A DNA stretch of 64,000 nt from the NCBI RefSeq assembly GCF_029946165.1, contig NZ_JAQSDZ010000001.1, forward strand, positions 62,001 through 126,000. The letters are read 5' to 3'. Below, one piece after another: positions 22,281 to 34,583 of the stretch (position 1 is the stretch's first letter; each line of letters begins with the position of its first letter). The translations under genes and the position numbers were made by a program. Below the pieces are notes generated by a model that was given only the letters and a program-made list of their open reading frames with translations, made no database searches and had not been told where the DNA came from. The stretch comes from Methylotenera sp. Lineage in GTDB: Bacteria; Pseudomonadota; Gammaproteobacteria; Burkholderiales; Methylophilaceae.

Positions 22281-23186
22281 TTATTTGTCTAAAATTTCAG
22301 CCAACAATCGAGTGACGCCACTTTGCCAACTTGGCAAAACTAAGTCAAAACTATTTTGTAACTTTTTAGTATTTAAACGTGAATTTAACGGCCTTTGGGC
22401 TGGCGTAGGGAAAGCTGAGGTTGGTACAACCTGAATTGCATCAGCCGCAACCTTAATCTCAACCCCTGCTTGCCGCGCTTGCTCAATCACAAAACTTGCG
22501 TAACCGTGCCAAGAAGTTTCACCACTGGCAACAAGATGATATATACCGCTCACATCTGGATTTATTAACGCCTTGCGAATAGCATGCGCAGTCACGTCTG
22601 CAATTAAATCGGCTCCTGTTGGCGCACCAATTTGATCGTTGATCACCTTTAACACATCTCGCTCTTTTGCAAGTTTGAGCATGGTTTTAGCAAAATTTCC
22701 ACCGCGCGCCGCATATACCCAGCTAGTGCGAAATATTAAATGTTTACAGCCTGATGCAACAATCGCATTTTCGCCTTCAAGCTTGGTCTGACCATAAACA
22801 CTTAATGGCGCCGTGGCATCCGTTTCCAGCCTTGCCACCTCGCCACTACCATCAAATACATAATCCGTTGAATAGTGAACCAGCCATGCACCAATGCGCT
22901 TAGCCTCATTCGCCAAAACAGTCGGTGCAAGCGCATTAATGGTTCGCGCCAACTCAGGCTCACTTTCAGCTTTATCTACCGCAGTATGTGCGGCCGCATT
23001 CACAATCACATCTGGCGCAATCGCTCGAATAGTCTCGGCAAGACCATCAATATTTATAAAGTCGCCACAAAAGTCCAAGCTTCTAGCATCTAAAGCAATC
23101 ACTTCACCCAAAGGCGCTAGGCTACGCTGCAACTCCCAACCAACTTGGCCGTTTTTACCAAGCAAAAGAATTTTTATTGAACTCAT
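22281..23186 (-). CDS. rfbD: dTDP-4-dehydrorhamnose reductase
   Basis: RmlD, an extended short-chain dehydrogenase that completes dTDP-L-rhamnose. The 301-residue product has the Rossmann loop LLLGKNGQVGWELQRSL, the catalytic YSTDYVFDG region near residue 105, and Tyr/Lys in YGQTKLEGE near residue 130. It is the first gene of the operon. The dehydratase RfbB, which normally accompanies these genes, is absent from the window. Confidence 0.95.
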   Translation of the reverse strand: MSSIKILLLGKNGQVGWELQRSLAPLGEVIALDARSLDFCGDFINIDGLAETIRAIAPDVIVNAAAHTAVDKAESEPELARTINALAPTVLANEAKRIGAWLVHYSTDYVFDGSGEVARLETDATAPLSVYGQTKLEGENAIVASGCKHLIFRTSWVYAARGGNFAKTMLKLAKERDVLKVINDQIGAPTGADLIADVTAHAIRKALINPDVSGIYHLVASGETSWHGYASFVIEQARQAGVEIKVAADAIQVVPTSAFPTPAQRPLNSRLNTKKLQNSFDLVLPSWQSGVTRLLAEILDK

Positions 23187-23597
23187 ATTTCACCTAAATC
23201 AAGATTTTTATTTTAGTTAAATTTTTCAAATACAAATCAAGCAATAACACTAAGATAACCCGTCAATTATCACCATATAAATTTAAACAATCTTAAATAT
23301 TTTATTTTATTAATTAAAAAATTTGAATCTAATAATGGAATATAAGCTGCTCCATTGTGGTAGTCACTAACGATTATTTTGCACGTTTCAAATTAGTGAT
23401 TAATTAAGCTAAATAGAACTTAAAAATTACTTCGTTTAAATCAAGACAAGTATGATGACAACTAACCTATTTCGGCTATAAAAATTTAAATCAACTTCAT
23501 TATTTCAGATTAATCATTAATTTTAAATCTAATAAAAACAATGAATTCAAGTACTTAATTTCAATAGCATATGAAAATTAATAATGTTAACTTGGTC
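23187..23597. other. AT-rich upstream region with an inverted repeat, no gene
   Basis: No convincing gene on either strand. The region lies between the divergent rfbD gene and the sigma-54 promoter at 23598. It contains TCACTAA...TTAGTGA inverted half-sites (about 23365-23400, 26-base spacing) which could bind an activator. It probably includes the rfbD promoter on the minus strand. Confidence 0.4.
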
Positions 23598-23611
23598 GGC
23601 ATATTTTTTGC
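23598..23611 (+). promoter_or_regulatory. Sigma-54 promoter 1
   Basis: CGGCATATTTTTTGCT has GG at 23598-23599 and GC at 23610-23611 separated by exactly 10 bases, the invariant -24/-12 spacing of RpoN promoters, in a near-consensus GGCAT-N5-TTGCT context. The predicted start is near 23623, about 55 bases before the ATG of the downstream small gene. Confidence 0.72.
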
Positions 23612-23678
23612 TTTTAGTAATATAAAACTACCCGACTTCAAGTAAGCCATTATTTAATACACAGTGAAAGGTTATAAA

Positions 23679-23933
23679 ATGAAATCGTTTTTTAATTTTA
23701 TTTTTCCCAAAAAGACTACTTCAAATTTTAAGAATTCAAGGTTTCAAAATTCTACTAACATTAGCCAACCAAGCAAAATCAGTGAAATAGATCTGCAACC
23801 CTCCATTTTTGATACCCTCCCTGCTAATGATGACTACGAAGTAGCAGAAATTAGTTTAGAAGAATTTGAAAGCACAACAATGATAGAGCGCAGAAAATTA
23901 TCTCGTAACGCTGATGAAGCTAGAACTGCATAA
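23679..23933 (+). CDS. Small hypothetical protein behind a sigma-54 promoter
   Basis: An 84-residue protein of unknown function. I chose the ATG at 23679 (MKSFFNFIFPKK) because GAAAGG lies about 9 bases upstream; an in-frame GTG lies at 23664. The first ten residues are aromatic and hydrophobic, the middle is Asn/Ser/Gln-rich, and the C-terminal third is acidic then basic (DDYEVAEISLEEF...IERRKLSRN). No signal peptide or known domain is visible. The C-terminal part aligns by eye with the product of the next small gene, 0.5 kb downstream (DD...V..[IM]S..[ED][FY]...ER[RK]K), suggesting paralogues. Codon use is as AT-rich as the surroundings. Confidence 0.6.
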   Translation: MKSFFNFIFPKKTTSNFKNSRFQNSTNISQPSKISEIDLQPSIFDTLPANDDYEVAEISLEEFESTTMIERRKLSRNADEARTA

Positions 23934-24110
23934 ATAACAAACAATAATACGCTACATATCCAATGTAAATTAAGCCTAAGGTTAACTTAAAAAGATATTG
24001 ATTAAGAGATTAAAAAATTAATAAAAACCTAACAGTGAATAAAACTAATTCATATATAGCTTCAATCTACTAACTTTCATAAATCTTTAACTTACATATA
24101 CTTTCCTTAG

Positions 24111-24170
24111 TTCCATACTTATACCCTTCACTATCTTCCAGAGTAAGGGTGTATGTATGGAATTTTATTT
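24111..24170 (+). terminator. Strong terminator after the first small gene
   Basis: TTCCATACTTATACCCTT (24111-24128) pairs with AAGGGTGTATGTATGGAA (24145-24162) in 16 of 18 positions around a 16-base loop, and is followed by TTTTATTTTTT. It lies about 180 bases past the small gene's stop, leaving a long 3' untranslated region that could release a small RNA. Confidence 0.82.
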
Positions 24171-24252
24171 TTTAAAATCTGATTTTTCCGCTTTTACTTT
24201 AACAAAATACTCCTAATAATACTGTAAAAAAATCCACAATATTGTTCAAAAA

Positions 24253-24275
24253 TTGCCAATTACATTAATTGACAA
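24253..24275. promoter_or_regulatory. Candidate enhancer-binding site for a sigma-54 activator
   Basis: A 23-base imperfect palindrome: TTGCCAATTA, CAT, TAATTGACAA (10-base arms with one mismatch). It lies about 105-125 bases upstream of the -24 element of sigma-54 promoter 2, the usual distance for an upstream activator site. A related half-site TCAATTA occurs at about 23263. Confidence 0.45.
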
Positions 24276-24378
24276 TCATGATTTATTTAAGAAAATCAAC
24301 TTGGAGACAATTAAAAATAGAGATTAAATTCTATATATTCATATAGTTAATTAAATTTAGACTTTCTAGAAATTAAGT

Positions 24379-24392
24379 GGCATATCTTTTGC
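24379..24392 (+). promoter_or_regulatory. Sigma-54 promoter 2
   Basis: TGGCATATCTTTTGCT has GG at 24379-24380 and GC at 24391-24392, exactly 10 bases apart, and matches the RpoN consensus TGGCAY-N5-TTGCW very closely. It shares GGCATAT-N-TTTTGCT with promoter 1. The predicted start is near 24404, 35 bases before the ATG. Confidence 0.8.
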
Positions 24393-24438
24393 TGATAGCT
24401 GTTTATAGCTAAATAAAACTTAAACTAGGACAGTGAAA

Positions 24439-24636
24439 ATGAAAGACATCTTCGATTCATATTTATATAAAATATCAAACTTACTTGGAAGAAACCAACC
24501 ACTTCCTGTCGGCAAGCATGATGTAGAAACAGAAACTGATGATGACTTGGTTCACATGAGCTATAACGACTATATAAAATTCATAAATGAAGAAGAGCGA
24601 AAAAAAGCCAGCCCACTACAGCCTGATATTAATTAA
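24439..24636 (+). CDS. Second small hypothetical protein behind a sigma-54 promoter
   Basis: A 65-residue protein, unknown function. The ATG at 24439 (MKDIFDSYLYKISNLLGRNQ) is preceded by AGGA at about 24427, and CAGTGAAA precedes the start as it does for the first small gene. The N-terminus looks like an amphipathic helix; the rest is acidic (ETETDDDLVHMSYNDY) then charged (NEEERKK). No signal peptide is visible. The spacing, promoter type, leader motif and C-terminal similarity suggest duplication of the gene at 23679. Confidence 0.6.
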   Translation: MKDIFDSYLYKISNLLGRNQPLPVGKHDVETETDDDLVHMSYNDYIKFINEEERKKASPLQPDIN

Positions 24637-25147
24637 AAATTAAACTCTTTCAAACCAAAAATTACTATTGAACTTTCCGTAATATTGAAGAGTAAAATTA
24701 TTAAGCCCTTATTGTCGGGTTAGATTTACAATCAAACTTCGAAACTTTCAGATCAGGTCTGAGCTAGTACATATTAAGCGATAGCTAAGCTCTGGGCTCT
24801 CCAATCAACAGATTTCAATCCTTTTAATTTCGACTTGATTCTATCGTGATTATAGTAACGAATGTATTGATCTATATCTGTTTTTAGCAGATCAACATAA
24901 AAAAGACCTCCGACTTCAGTGTACCGAAGTTTCCCATCGCAGCCTTTCTCAAACAGTTACTTTCTGGACATGCAGAGCTAAGTTTTGTTTACTCAATTAA
25001 CTTTGGTGAGCAGGCATCGGATATTGCTACCCTTGATAAGAGTCTAGCATTGTTGACCATTTTAGTTATGGTTTTGGCATAGAGAACTTTTGTTGCGGAA
25101 TTAAGGATTCTAGCTTTTTAAGTAATCATTCTACTTCAATAATAACG
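24637..25147. other. Gene-poor stretch containing an IS remnant
   Basis: Apart from the IS3-type fragment (24774-24971) I see no intact gene. A plus-strand frame is open from 24921 to 25082 but has no start or recognisable family and overlaps the IS fragment antisense. Confidence 0.4.
24774..24971 (-). pseudogene. IS3-family transposase remnant, C-terminal end
   Basis: Reading the minus strand in two frames gives FGTLKSEVFF, then YVDLLKTDIDQYIRYYNHDR and IKSKLKGLKSVDWRAQSLAI before a stop at 24774. This is the end of an IS3/IS150-type DDE integrase core (family pattern NFFGTLKSE ... YI.YYN..RI...LKG.SP..YR). There is a frameshift at a run of six T and a stop further upstream (MSRK then stop), so it is a decayed fragment. 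No terminal repeats or other half of the element were found. Confidence 0.8.
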
Positions 25148-25372: not shown

Positions 25373-25421
25373 ATTTTCATTGTTTTGAGCTATTGCTCTG
25401 TTACAATTGCAACTATGTTGC
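25336..25421. promoter_or_regulatory. Two palindromes upstream of the TonB-receptor operon
   Basis: AATGCAA-TTGTG-TTGCATT (25336-25354) is a perfect inverted repeat, and GCAAC-TAT-GTTGC (25409-25421) is a second one overlapping the start of the small exported protein gene. Both contain the TTGCA/TGCAA core. Metal-responsive repressors of the Fur/Zur class control such receptors, but these repeats do not match the E. coli Zur box, so the regulator is open. Confidence 0.45.
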
Positions 25422-30719: not shown

Positions 30720-31934
30720 TTATGCTGTTTTAAACGGTATTACTTTAGCCCCTGCTTTAAGTTCATCTAAATAATCTGCCCATTGTTGCATCATAACTTT
30801 TCGTTGCTCAAACTTAGTGCGGTTATATGCCCCACCTAAAGCATCGGGTACAGCATGGGCTAATTGAAGTTCAATAATGGCGGGGTCAATATTTAAACGC
30901 TCATGCAAAATGGTACGCGCCATTGCTCTAAAGCCGTGTGCTGTAATGTCTTTTTGTGTATCGTAACCCATACGCTGTAATGCTGCGTTTATAGCCGCTT
31001 CACTCATAGCTTTTTTAGGGTCGCGCCCACCTTGAAAAACATATTCACCATAACCACTGACTGGGTACAATTCTTTTAAAATTTTAATAGCCTGTGTTGA
31101 TAAAGGTACGATATGTTGCGTTTTGGTTTTAGTAACTAAGTAAGCCCACTCACCCGCGTCTAGGTTTATATCTGCCCATTTAGCACGCCTTAACTCACTA
31201 GGGCGCGTAAACACTAATGGCGAAAGCCGTAATGCACACTCAACGGTAAAAGTGCCTTTAAAGGCGTCTATTGCTCTTAATAGTTCAGCTACTTGTTTAG
31301 GCTCGGTAAAGGACGCCATATGCTTAACCGAAGCTGAGGGTAAAGCGCCCCTTAAATCGACTGTAACATCACGCATGGCTTTACCAGTTTGCACGGCATA
31401 TCTAAACACCTGTGAAACCGCTTGCAATGCTCTATGGGCAGTTTCTAATTTACTTTGAACCTGTGGGCGCTTAACCACTTCTAGCACTTCAGGCGCGGTT
31501 ATTTGTGAAATAGGCTTGCTACCTATCCAAGGGAATATATAAAGCTCTAAACGCCTCACTGTGCGTTCTTTATGTGACTTTGATTTATTAGTAAAAAAAG
31601 ACTCTGCCCATTCAAGTGCTATTAACTCAAAACTATCCGCTTTGTTGGAGTAAATACTTTGTTTAGTAGATTTCTTTAATTCACTAGGATCAACTGGCGG
31701 GGTCTGTGAAAGTAACTTTCTAGCCTCATCTCGTTTTATTCTCGCCTCTGCTAGTGAAACATCGGGATAAGTACCTAAGGCAAGTAATTTTTCTTTATTC
31801 AAATAGCGATACTTAAAACGCCACCACTTACCCCCACTTGGGGTAACTTGAATAAATAACCCAGCTTCATCATATAGCTTGAAAGCCTTATCTTTAGGCT
31901 TTGCGTTCTTTATTGCAGTGACTGAAAGTGCCAT
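30720..31934 (-). CDS. Tyrosine site-specific integrase, P4/DUF4102 type
   Basis: A 404-residue integrase. The N-terminal arm-binding domain (DUF4102) is at residues 1-90 (MALSVTAIKNAKPKDKAFKL, GGKWWRFKYRY, LALGTYPDVSLAEAR). A SAM-like core-binding domain follows at about 100-200. The catalytic domain carries Arg244 in FTRPSELRRAKW, His333/Arg336 in TAHGFRAMART, His360 in QLAHAVPDALGGAYNR and the nucleophile Tyr370. All catalytic residues are present, so it should be active. It starts 32 bases from the 21-bp repeat and 166 bases from the ssrA fragment, the usual position for an integrase next to its attachment site. Confidence 0.95.
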   Translation of the reverse strand: MALSVTAIKNAKPKDKAFKLYDEAGLFIQVTPSGGKWWRFKYRYLNKEKLLALGTYPDVSLAEARIKRDEARKLLSQTPPVDPSELKKSTKQSIYSNKADSFELIALEWAESFFTNKSKSHKERTVRRLELYIFPWIGSKPISQITAPEVLEVVKRPQVQSKLETAHRALQAVSQVFRYAVQTGKAMRDVTVDLRGALPSASVKHMASFTEPKQVAELLRAIDAFKGTFTVECALRLSPLVFTRPSELRRAKWADINLDAGEWAYLVTKTKTQHIVPLSTQAIKILKELYPVSGYGEYVFQGGRDPKKAMSEAAINAALQRMGYDTQKDITAHGFRAMARTILHERLNIDPAIIELQLAHAVPDALGGAYNRTKFEQRKVMMQQWADYLDELKAGAKVIPFKTA

Positions 31935-31965
31935 ATTGGGGTAACTCTCTTTTTGGTAAGTGCTG

Positions 31966-31986
31966 TTACCCCCAAAGTTACCCCAA
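31966..31986. repeat. 21-bp direct repeat, right copy
   Basis: Identical to 28046-28066. Further GGGGTAAC and GTGGGG elements surround it (31938-31945, 31991-31996), consistent with a cluster of arm sites for the adjacent integrase. Confidence 0.7.
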
Positions 31987-32031
31987 ATAAGTGGGGTATG
32001 TCAAGCAACCTTATGCAACTACAATAGACGT

Positions 32032-32067
32032 AAAAAAAGCCTAGAAAGTTGAATTTACTAGGCTTTT
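32032..32067 (-). terminator. Intrinsic terminator downstream of the ssrA fragment
   Basis: AAAAGCCTAG and CTAGGCTTTT enclose a 13-base loop; on the minus strand it ends in seven T. It lies 33 bases past the 3' CCA of the ssrA fragment and looks like the ssrA terminator. It also has T residues on the other strand. Confidence 0.82.
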
Positions 32068-32099
32068 AATACTTTTTGATACTTCTTAAAACACTTAAT

Positions 32100-32150
32100 T
32101 GGTGGAGCTGGCGGGAATCGAACCCGCGTTCCACCCTTATAACATGCGGC
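32100..32150 (-). pseudogene. 3' fragment of ssrA (tmRNA), integration scar
   Basis: On the minus strand the sequence ends GGTTCGATTCCCGCCAGCTC then CACCA, preceded by GGAACGCG. This is the T-arm, the acceptor 3' strand CAGCTCC and the encoded CCA of tmRNA. The 5' acceptor strand, tag-coding frame and pseudoknots are absent: the relaxase gene occupies the place where they would be. Such 3' duplicates are left when an element integrates into the ssrA 3' end. Upstream, ATGTTGTCAA is repeated twice in tandem. Confidence 0.78.
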
Positions 32151-32411
32151 TCTAAGAGAGATGTTGTCAAAATGTTGTCAATCACTTTTCGACGCATTAG
32201 AAATACCAATAAATTCCCCATCAATTTCAAACAAATATTGAGTTACCACACACCAAAAACAATGACAGAATTCATCAAATAATCCACTACTAAAGGAGCC
32301 AAAATCAGTCATTTTTAACTAACATTTGAACCCCGTTTTAAGCTACTTTTAGTGGCACCATTACGCCAAAAATCAGTGGCGCTTTAATGCCGAAAAGTGA
32401 CAAAGCACTCT
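32151..32411. other. Junction between the ssrA scar and the mobilisation module, no gene
   Basis: Contains the tandem ATGTTGTCAA repeats next to the scar and two GCCAAAA-TCAGT blocks (about 32298 and 32366) separated by 68 bases. No reading frame is convincing. Confidence 0.4.
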
Positions 32412-34583
32412 CTAGAAGGGAAAGTCAGAGCCGCGTACCTTTCCAACACTAGTTCTGACTTCATCAATCTGTTGACGATTCTCATGTCTAAGAGTAATGC
32501 CTTTTACTGACTGCGCATGATCAGCAAGCTTCTCCGCATAATTCTCATGCACTTTATGGTCTTTGCTGTTGTCACTAAGCACTTTGATAGCATCGACAAT
32601 CGCAGTGCGCTTATACCCGATTTCATGCATCACATTGGCAATCATGAGATCTTTCCTGCTTTGATTGCCTGCATTGTCACCAATTTCATTACTGATATTG
32701 GCATACGCTTCGTGCGCTAGTTCCATCTTAGATTTAACATCGTCCACATCAAACACTGGCACTTCAACGTGTTTCAAATTGAGCCTAGGCTTCTCAATAG
32801 CTTTATTCCAAGACTTAGGTGAAGGCGCATCTATTTTGGCAGATGCAGAGGCTGTTACATGCCCCAGCATTGCGCCTTTGGATTTATCTTGCTGGTCGAT
32901 GATATACGCCTGTAGATCTGGGTTCGTGATTTTATTTGCCACACCCAGCTTGATCGCGACATCAACTGCCCTGCGTTTAAATTCATCGCTGCCCGTCAAT
33001 TGAAATGTCTTCCACTTTTGAGATGAAAGCTGGATCATTGCTTTTATTGATTGATCACGCTCTTTCAGCAATGATATTTTTCTACCGCTATCCACAAAAT
33101 CGATATCACCTGAATCATTATTCTTGTAGTTAACGATGGTCTCTTTTACCGAACGCACATGTCCTGTCGTAGACCTCACATTGACATCATGAGTAGTCAT
33201 TTCGGCTTCATATGCGCTAATACCATGCTTTACTGGAACAAAAAGTGCGCCTAGGTCCGATGTTTTAACGCCATTATCACCATCACCTTGTCGCAGGGCG
33301 ATGTTGTTAGGCGCAACACGCCAAGTAGTATGCAGTTGGTGCAAATCTTCAGACCTATCACGTACGTAGTCCCCAAACTTACCTGGATGTGCAGTCTGGA
33401 TGCTTAACTCCATCTTTAATAATTGACGCTCAATACTGTGCGCATGTTTCATCAATTCCTTTTGAGATGCATGCTCATGCGCCAAGACTGACCGCAAAGC
33501 ATTTAATGCAGATCCATTACCTTTCCAATCGGGTCTTGAGGCATTAAGCTTTTCGCGCGCCTGCTTATGCGTCTCCATCAATAACGAAAAGTCAGCTTGA
33601 TGCTTTGCGCGCAGCTCGTCAGTTTTATTCTTTTTATACCCCCTGTGACTTACTTTCTCAGCGTTATATTGATGCCACACTTCCTTGACGTCAGGTGCCA
33701 TTCCTTTCATGGGTTCTATCTTCCGCGCTAAAATTTCATAGGTAGATTTCTCAAAGGCACCGAAGCGTGCTTCCATCTTGCCAAGTGCAGCAGATCTATT
33801 CGCGGTAGATGCCTTAACCTTGATAATTTCATTACCCTGTCTAACATCAACAGTCGCACCAGACCCTTTCTTTTCATAGGTGACACCCTGTGATGCAAGT
33901 ACCGCATGTAGATCATCCCAACACTTAATATTCTTATCTTTCAGTACGTCGGTAATTGCATCGCGCGCAATATCTGAAGCACTTCTTTGCCCGCTAAAAA
34001 CTTCAACTTCCCTACCTTTTAACGATGGGATATTTGCATCGCCAGAACGCACACATGCGCCATCACTGTCTATGATATACCGCTGGCCAGCATCCTTTTC
34101 CCAACCTTGAATATAGTTGATTTTTGCAACGGCACGCTGTGAGGATTCTTTTTGAAATTTGAGTGGAAAGGATTTTTCTGTGATTGGATTATTCATGATG
34201 ATTGCGACATGAATATGCGTGTTATCCTGATCATAATGCATTGCACATTTAACCAGAGCACGCGCTAAACCTAACTCATCCAGCAACATTTTTACAGCTT
34301 GGTGGGCTTGCTCACGATTAGGTTCTTCACCTTCGCTGAATGAAATAACATAGTGGCGAAACGGTATGCGAGAAAGTGCATTTGATTCAGCCAACGCCAT
34401 CATTTCTATATCAGCAGTTTCATTTGAAAAGGCATTTTCATGCCATGCATCGAAGGCTTTTTCTTTCCCCGCTTCATATCCGTGCTCTTGCTTTGCCTCG
34501 GGTTTTTCAAGGTAATCCAAAAGGTTTTTTAAACCTATCCTACCAGTGTTTTTGTTTGCAATTTCTTTAATGACAGCTGACAT
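32412..34583 (-). CDS. MOBP-type relaxase/mobilisation protein
   Basis: A 723-residue protein that would nick oriT and pilot DNA transfer. Residues 1-300 form the relaxase domain: Tyr24 in LLDYLEKPEA is the probable nucleophile, RHYVISFSEGEEP near 76-88 is motif II, and AMHYDQDNTHIHVAIIM has the metal histidines His116, His123 and His125. The remaining 420 residues are charged and helical, with no clear primase domain. It lies 5 bases downstream of the MobC-like gene and near a RP4-like nick sequence. No coupling protein or mating-pair genes are seen, so the module would be mobilised in trans. Confidence 0.88.
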   Translation of the reverse strand: MSAVIKEIANKNTGRIGLKNLLDYLEKPEAKQEHGYEAGKEKAFDAWHENAFSNETADIEMMALAESNALSRIPFRHYVISFSEGEEPNREQAHQAVKMLLDELGLARALVKCAMHYDQDNTHIHVAIIMNNPITEKSFPLKFQKESSQRAVAKINYIQGWEKDAGQRYIIDSDGACVRSGDANIPSLKGREVEVFSGQRSASDIARDAITDVLKDKNIKCWDDLHAVLASQGVTYEKKGSGATVDVRQGNEIIKVKASTANRSAALGKMEARFGAFEKSTYEILARKIEPMKGMAPDVKEVWHQYNAEKVSHRGYKKNKTDELRAKHQADFSLLMETHKQAREKLNASRPDWKGNGSALNALRSVLAHEHASQKELMKHAHSIERQLLKMELSIQTAHPGKFGDYVRDRSEDLHQLHTTWRVAPNNIALRQGDGDNGVKTSDLGALFVPVKHGISAYEAEMTTHDVNVRSTTGHVRSVKETIVNYKNNDSGDIDFVDSGRKISLLKERDQSIKAMIQLSSQKWKTFQLTGSDEFKRRAVDVAIKLGVANKITNPDLQAYIIDQQDKSKGAMLGHVTASASAKIDAPSPKSWNKAIEKPRLNLKHVEVPVFDVDDVKSKMELAHEAYANISNEIGDNAGNQSRKDLMIANVMHEIGYKRTAIVDAIKVLSDNSKDHKVHENYAEKLADHAQSVKGITLRHENRQQIDEVRTSVGKVRGSDFPF

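Follow-up and report, generated by a model that had tools for sequence, protein, structure and literature searches.

An undescribed small-protein family of Methylotenera with predicted enhancer-dependent sigma-54 promoters

Genes A and B and their surroundings

Among the methylotrophs of lake sediments Methylotenera is well known. The stretch of its DNA that was analysed here (the window, 64,000 nucleotides in full) carries two short genes, A and B, with about 0.5 kb between the stop of A and the start of B, each preceded by its own predicted promoter and upstream sites (Table 1). The two are flanked by a minus-strand ORF starting at 23186, which we take to be rfbD, and by an ORF at 25385 whose match to DUF2946 stays below the threshold (E 0.005; 18 bits versus 23.7). 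A transposase remnant (rve_2, E 2.6e-10) lies just downstream of B (24774-24953, minus strand), and further on a tyrosine integrase and a MobA/VirD2-type relaxase are encoded (30720-34583, minus strand), which probably belong to an integrated mobilizable element; a tRNA was not found anywhere in the 64-kb window.

Table 1. Features of the A-B locus, numbered from the first nucleotide of the window
Feature	Position	Strand	Basis
Upstream activator element (predicted), gene A (AGACAAGTATGATGACAACTAACCTA)	23444..23469	+	de novo motif; PWM 17.9, position -153
IHF-like site, gene A (AATTCAAGTACTTA)	23544..23557	+	de novo motif; position -53
Sigma-54 -24/-12 promoter (predicted), gene A (CGGCATATTTTTTGCT)	23597..23612	+	GG-N10-GC box; kept in 5/5 relatives with gene A
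Gene A, small protein, 84 aa	23679..23933	+	ORF, relatives, dN/dS
Possible terminator downstream of A (long hairpin, T-rich tail)	24113..24160	+	sequence, fold
Upstream activator element (predicted), gene B (CCACAATATTGTTCAAAAATTGCCAA)	24234..24259	+	de novo motif; PWM 28.3, position -144
23-bp palindrome	24253..24275	+	overlaps right edge of the activator element of B; conservation partial
IHF-like site, gene B (TATTCATATAGTTA)	24336..24349	+	de novo motif
Sigma-54 -24/-12 promoter (predicted), gene B (TGGCATATCTTTTGCT)	24378..24393	+	GG-N10-GC box; kept in 3/3 relatives with gene B
Gene B, small protein, 65 aa	24439..24636	+	ORF, homologues, dN/dS

The small-protein family and its distribution

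That A and B are real proteins is nearly certain. Besides B itself, 22 clusters of B homologues were found with 62-86% identity, all at E 1e-16 or better, with matches also in the genomes G013 (88%), G003 (87%) and G027 (86%), and the dN/dS of B was 0.05-0.09 in six of six pairs. Relatives of A are more divergent (39-61% identity, five genomes); dN/dS was 0.07-0.11 in three pairs among its three closest relatives and 0.23-0.57 when the A of this genome was compared with those three, which points to a weaker constraint on its own copy, distant pairs being near saturation. Judged by these ratios, both genes are under purifying selection. Both peptides belong to a family for which 23 members were counted, spread over 19 of the 52 genomes in the genus. 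It includes a third subgroup, C (63-85 aa), which surfaced via weak matches, some of them from A and B queries at one and the same place.

The kinship of A and B, claimed earlier from an alignment of their C-terminal parts, is not visible in a BLASTP comparison of the two (E 0.98), but it was borne out when profiles were compared: hhalign aligned the A/C profile with the B profile at a probability of 95-96% and a score of 45.8, which none of 200 column shuffles reached (best shuffle 27.2). In a search of a large database the A/C profile matched 107 clusters, its own A included, and no B member at E 0.01; a profile built with B included did recover B members, a result that is not independent of that inclusion. 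What the members share are their two ends, i.e. an N-terminal MKxxFxxIFxK and a C-terminal DxEVxExSYxEY helix, which in A and C has ERR after it. The linker that connects these ends has about 20 to 60 residues and varies widely in A/C. On these profile alignments A and B are paralogues within one family.

The initial annotation knew of no described family for these products, and none was found here either. Among the 64 members of the family alignment (A4) none scored over a curated Pfam or NCBIfam cut-off (best E 0.011 and 0.0037, respectively), and the sub-threshold matches are scattered over one to four members each. A profile search of the PDB gave E 0.18 at best, and for B no match; of four proteins scanned against PHROGs, one C member matched a PHROG of unknown function with its N-terminus (E 7e-4). 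A PilZ-like reading of ERRKxPR was dropped, as there was no PilZ match in the 64 members. No paper on Methylotenera with rpoN or sigma-54 was found in the literature collection searched, and nothing on such a small-protein family stood in the titles and abstract openings among the matches listed. By sequence comparison, this is a real but undescribed family with well-formed enhancer-dependent sigma-54 promoters, in one genus so far.

The family is present in 18 of 34 high-quality genomes of the genus. Across 150 genomes from the Methylophilaceae, 18 same-genus genomes matched at E 5e-19 or better, and a further 25 matches in six other genera were counted as chance, having E-values of 0.007-0.04 and lying inside frames of 174-568 codons. 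Fifteen family loci carry an organism name, i.e. 13 Methylotenera, one betaproteobacterial and one uncultured proteobacterial record, and some of these have proteins identical to ones in the same-genus relatives. The family is therefore restricted to Methylotenera as seen so far, a limit that rests on these named loci and the two genome surveys, most database protein matches being without an organism name.

Within the genus two neighbourhoods are found. Gene A occurs in six genomes, four of which also carry B, and in five of the six rfbD lies beside the family (in the sixth, G003, it is not within the stretch examined). Subgroup C occurs in thirteen genomes, always (13/13) with a gene upstream that we take to be lgt, and in twelve with a presumably cstA-like frame downstream, which in G158 is replaced by a gene assumed to be mutS-like. 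The A/B type and the C type were together in none of the 52 genomes at E 0.001. The same anatomy of the promoter is seen in the rfbD and in the lgt neighbourhood. A link to surface polysaccharides, suggested earlier, finds no backing in this distribution, since rfbD adjoins the family in only 5 of the 19 genomes (with G003 as the sixth A genome, where the stretch examined does not contain it) and the other 13 adjoin lgt; nor does any of eight scanned activators of the own genome pass the cut-off for PrsR (see below).

An improbable alternative to functional peptides is that the transcripts act, as a regulatory RNA between or within A and B. A strong terminator had been described at the end of gene A; the long hairpin with its T-rich tail exists, but it lies about 180 nt past the stop of A, and it is absent from the consensus terminator scan (the loop limit of which is 8). 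Three relatives (L049, L050 and L051) have a clear terminator-like hairpin directly after A, and in these three a second conserved stretch follows, leading to another hairpin and T run before B, which makes their A-B intergenic stretch a candidate small RNA. Against an RNA-based function stand the strong protein-level constraint, a search of Rfam that gave nothing convincing (best E 0.19, 20.5 bits versus a gathering score of 51), and the absence of the second hairpin from the own genome, where 23934-24377 contains only a different long hairpin.

Promoter anatomy

Each gene had been assigned its own GG-N10-GC promoter, and such boxes recur in most of the family: 18 of the 23 members have one that matches 10 or more of the 11 consensus letters, at a distance of 59-87 nt ahead of the ATG, compared to a mean of 0.088 of 23 (maximum 1) in 500 dinucleotide shuffles of the 120-bp upstream regions. 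The relatives with gene A or gene B all have the box too (Table 1), and A and B are very probably under sigma-54 control. The five members that have no box (in G014, G025, G036, G124 and G186) are all of one protein type, and a scan of their loci found no activator element at PWM 13 near the gene, from which it follows that sigma-54 control is not essential to the use of the protein. The leader that A and B were said to share is a less general feature. It is true that CAGTGAAA precedes both ATGs, but GTGAAAGG is kept only by the relatives of A, and the three relatives of B have CAGCAAAATG or CAGTAAAATG in the same position; the shared leader is therefore mostly a local coincidence.

The site of an activator had been expected upstream of the sigma-54 promoters, and a shared element was indeed found there. 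Within the 230 bp upstream of the box, a 26-bp element was recovered de novo in ten of ten representatives, at -144 to -165 from the box, with an information content of 27.8 bits (12 shuffled sets 17.7 +/- 0.5, maximum 18.6). Its consensus, roughly CRACAAtnTTGWYGAAAAnnTYGYCAA, consists of three half-sites in alternating direction. By PWM the element is present upstream of 18 of 18 boxes with scores of 16.3-30.1, the matrix having been built from 10 of these promoters, of which the other 8 are close relatives; the element of gene A is degenerate, with the second-lowest score of the 18. Between element and box lies a second motif, AATTCAnnnnnTTA, at -53, -51 or -42 (information content 15.9; 12 shuffled sets 12.3 +/- 0.55, maximum 13.5), which is called IHF-like here for its resemblance to the IHF consensus. 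In B both the element and the IHF-like site are about one helical turn closer to the box than in A, and across the 18 promoters the positions are phased at 10.5 bp with R 0.72 and 0.93, the rows being related by descent so that a formal P is unusable. Going by these motifs, the 26-bp element is the probable site of an activator, and box, element and IHF-like site are arranged as is typical of enhancer-dependent sigma-54 promoters.

The enhancer originally proposed for B was a different sequence, namely a 23-base palindrome. The palindrome is real and has zero mismatches (0.11 palindromes with three or fewer mismatches are expected in the window), but only part of it is found in the three relatives that have B, and the element found family-wide is the neighbouring one that it overlaps (Table 1). 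The palindrome was therefore rejected as a conserved enhancer. In promoters of the A and C types (L037, L052 and L053 among them) a further palindrome, similar to TTAAC-N5-GTTAA, lies within the 0-20 bp that precede the -24 box. It is the best 20-wide motif, at -20 in six of ten representatives (information content 18.4; shuffles 14.3, maximum 15.5), and is also present in L038 and L041, two members from which the sigma-54 box has been lost; it is possibly the site of a further regulator.

In 840 kb of locus DNA (family-enriched, overlaps counted) there were 25 distinct sites with a PWM score of at least 16, of which 21 are followed by a box (18 in the family, 3 others) and 4 are not. In the own genome only A and B carry it, among 50 loci examined out of 191 sigma-54-like places, where GG-N10-GC sites were scored. 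As a marker of an own-genome regulon CGWCAANNTTGWCG alone was uninformative, with 35 places at one mismatch versus 59 for the reversed control and no perfect matches among the matches listed. The joint pattern of element core and box gave 28 matches in the 52 genomes (12 family, 16 others), compared to 2 for the reversed control. Nine of the 16 non-family matches lie inside open frames of more than 140 codons, and three of the other seven reach PWM 16, i.e. a pilin-type gene in G034 and EAL-domain genes in G001 and G009 (L163:1499-1724 and L145:114-351; PWM 16.2 and 17.2, respectively). The latter two are genomes without the small-protein family, and a search of the genus with the EAL protein found it at full length only in these two and partially in 13 more. 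A regulon wider than the small-protein family is not established.

Two other places deserve mention. Upstream of a gene that is presumably glycogen phosphorylase-like (L009, G000:C21:77576-77739), CGATAAAATTGTCG lies 148 bp from a sigma-54-like box, inside the preceding ORF. In G179 (L147, reverse strand, about 2308-2480) a gene starting with MATIIGDQDLPLADD and judged by eye to be RTX-like carries the box GGCATATATATTGC, along with an element-like site scoring 13.5.

Candidate activators and proposed function

The arrangement resembles several known systems. PEP-CTERM genes controlled by PrsK/PrsR are, according to two papers (PMC1569441; pepA, PMC9850573), likewise single genes that follow a long intergenic region, in which a sigma-54 box is combined with a shared motif further upstream, the distance from box to start codon averaging 71 nt. 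The differences are that none of the PEP-CTERM models of Pfam and NCBIfam is matched by the Methylotenera small proteins, and that the published motif 1 has TTTACA at its end and a spacer of about 63 nt (92 at most), whereas the start of the present element is 144-165 nt away from the box, on its upstream side. In addition, of the nine full bEBPs in the own genome (four further matches being weak and partial), the eight that were scanned with NCBIfam models, the ninth (L136) having been read by eye, include none that passes the PrsR model TIGR02915 (best 412.5 versus a cut-off of 502.6).

A second likeness is to the enteric QseF (GlrR)-sigma-54-glmY system, which, according to PMC8745638, also combines a sigma-54 promoter, putative upstream activator and IHF sites, and a small product; the product is an sRNA there and a protein here. 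The activator might accordingly be a GlrR/QseF-like regulator of a GlrK-QseG-GlrR-type system (envelope sensing), with the small proteins in the place of the enteric sRNA GlmY, although we consider this rather unlikely. The own genome does encode a GlrR-like protein, L131, which has GlrR as its best model (623.8, below the cut-off of 763) and adjoins, by eye, the end of a kinase gene and a small lipoprotein-like ORF. GlrR-like proteins, present in 20 of 52 genomes overall, occur in 11 of 14 genomes with boxed family genes versus 9 of 38 others (Fisher P 0.0008), or in 10 of 13 versus 7 of 21 when only high-quality genomes are counted (P 0.03), an association that could stem from shared ancestry. 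However, no GlrR-like match was found at E 1e-120 in G016, G020 and G179, each of which is 99% complete and has box and element, and the QseF site TGTCN10GACA is not above chance (5.56 versus 5.46 +/- 0.14 matches). The orphan regulator L129 was tried as the activator as well and rejected for lack of association (11/14 versus 21/38, P 0.2); neither of the two is present in all 14 genomes. Matches to the FleQ-type site, by the consensus as we take it to be, are about 2 sd up (9.39 versus 9.03 +/- 0.18).

Nitrogen control, to which the initial annotation had alluded, would require NtrC or NifA, both of which are encoded above their NCBIfam cut-offs, and with the site consensus sequences that we assumed, NifA-type sites (TGT-N10-ACA, a six-letter consensus) are slightly up (5.06 versus 4.81 +/- 0.12). 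NtrC-type sites are not enriched (5.00 versus 5.09 +/- 0.12), and the own promoter that we take to be glnK-like (L221, the single NtrC-type target tested) scores -4.3 for the element, which leaves a nitrogen link very improbable. A further candidate is PilR, which would drive the family genes within a pilus regulon. PilR-sigma-54-pilA is a sigma-54 system with a single-gene promoter in the same genomes, a protein presumed to be PilR-like (L132, which matched no PilR model) is among the own activators, and a good element (PWM 17.5) accompanies the pilin-type promoter in G034. Against this, 30 sigma-54 promoters from 29 of 30 pilin loci reach 11.5 at best and in no case the 13 used as threshold, versus 16.3-30.1 in the family; this reading is largely refuted, and we regard it as extremely improbable.

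It is quite possible, if short of probable, that the family instead answers to an unknown sigma-54 activator of Methylotenera, that it is the main and perhaps the only output of this activator here, and that the switch was duplicated together with its control region (giving A and B) and resides in two neighbourhoods. The fuller explanation, in which paralogous small proteins, enhancer-dependent sigma-54 promoters and tether or adaptor products are combined, we hold to be reasonably probable. RNA polymerase with sigma-54 would wait at the -24/-12 box of each gene, the activator (a bEBP) would bind some 150 bp further upstream, at the 26-bp element, IHF would bend the DNA in between, and on arrival of its signal the ATPase of the activator would open the promoter. 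The proteins themselves might then be cytoplasmic tethers or adaptors, whose task is to recruit a partner to the inner membrane, or to modulate it, for as long as the signal is on.

The adaptor role is the more tentative part. Two conserved ends with a variable linker fit a two-ended tether, which is a guess from anatomy. The predicted structure of B (mean pLDDT 66) has helices at 2-17, 31-38 and 42-56, the last of which holds the best-scoring block (pLDDT 88), and the hydrophobic moment of its N-terminal helix makes it marginally amphipathic (0.41, a value that 7.6% of shuffles reach); an amphipathic N-terminus is not supported in A and C by the same measure. With marginal amphipathicity in B only and a model of low confidence, support for this role is weak. 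This tight type of promoter suggests that it is only in the presence of a specific signal that the proteins matter, and the combination of an orphan small-protein family with an orphan activator site offers a clean, testable case, in which element and phasing make the regulator findable among nine candidate proteins.

Two proteins that look similar are encoded elsewhere. The product of L153 (G010), which has 482 aa and no Pfam match, begins with MLFKMFKK, and that of L027 (G000:C1:356067) with MKFFKKIF; both adjoin, by eye, a gluQ-like gene, and a sigma-54-like box is seen in both genomes.
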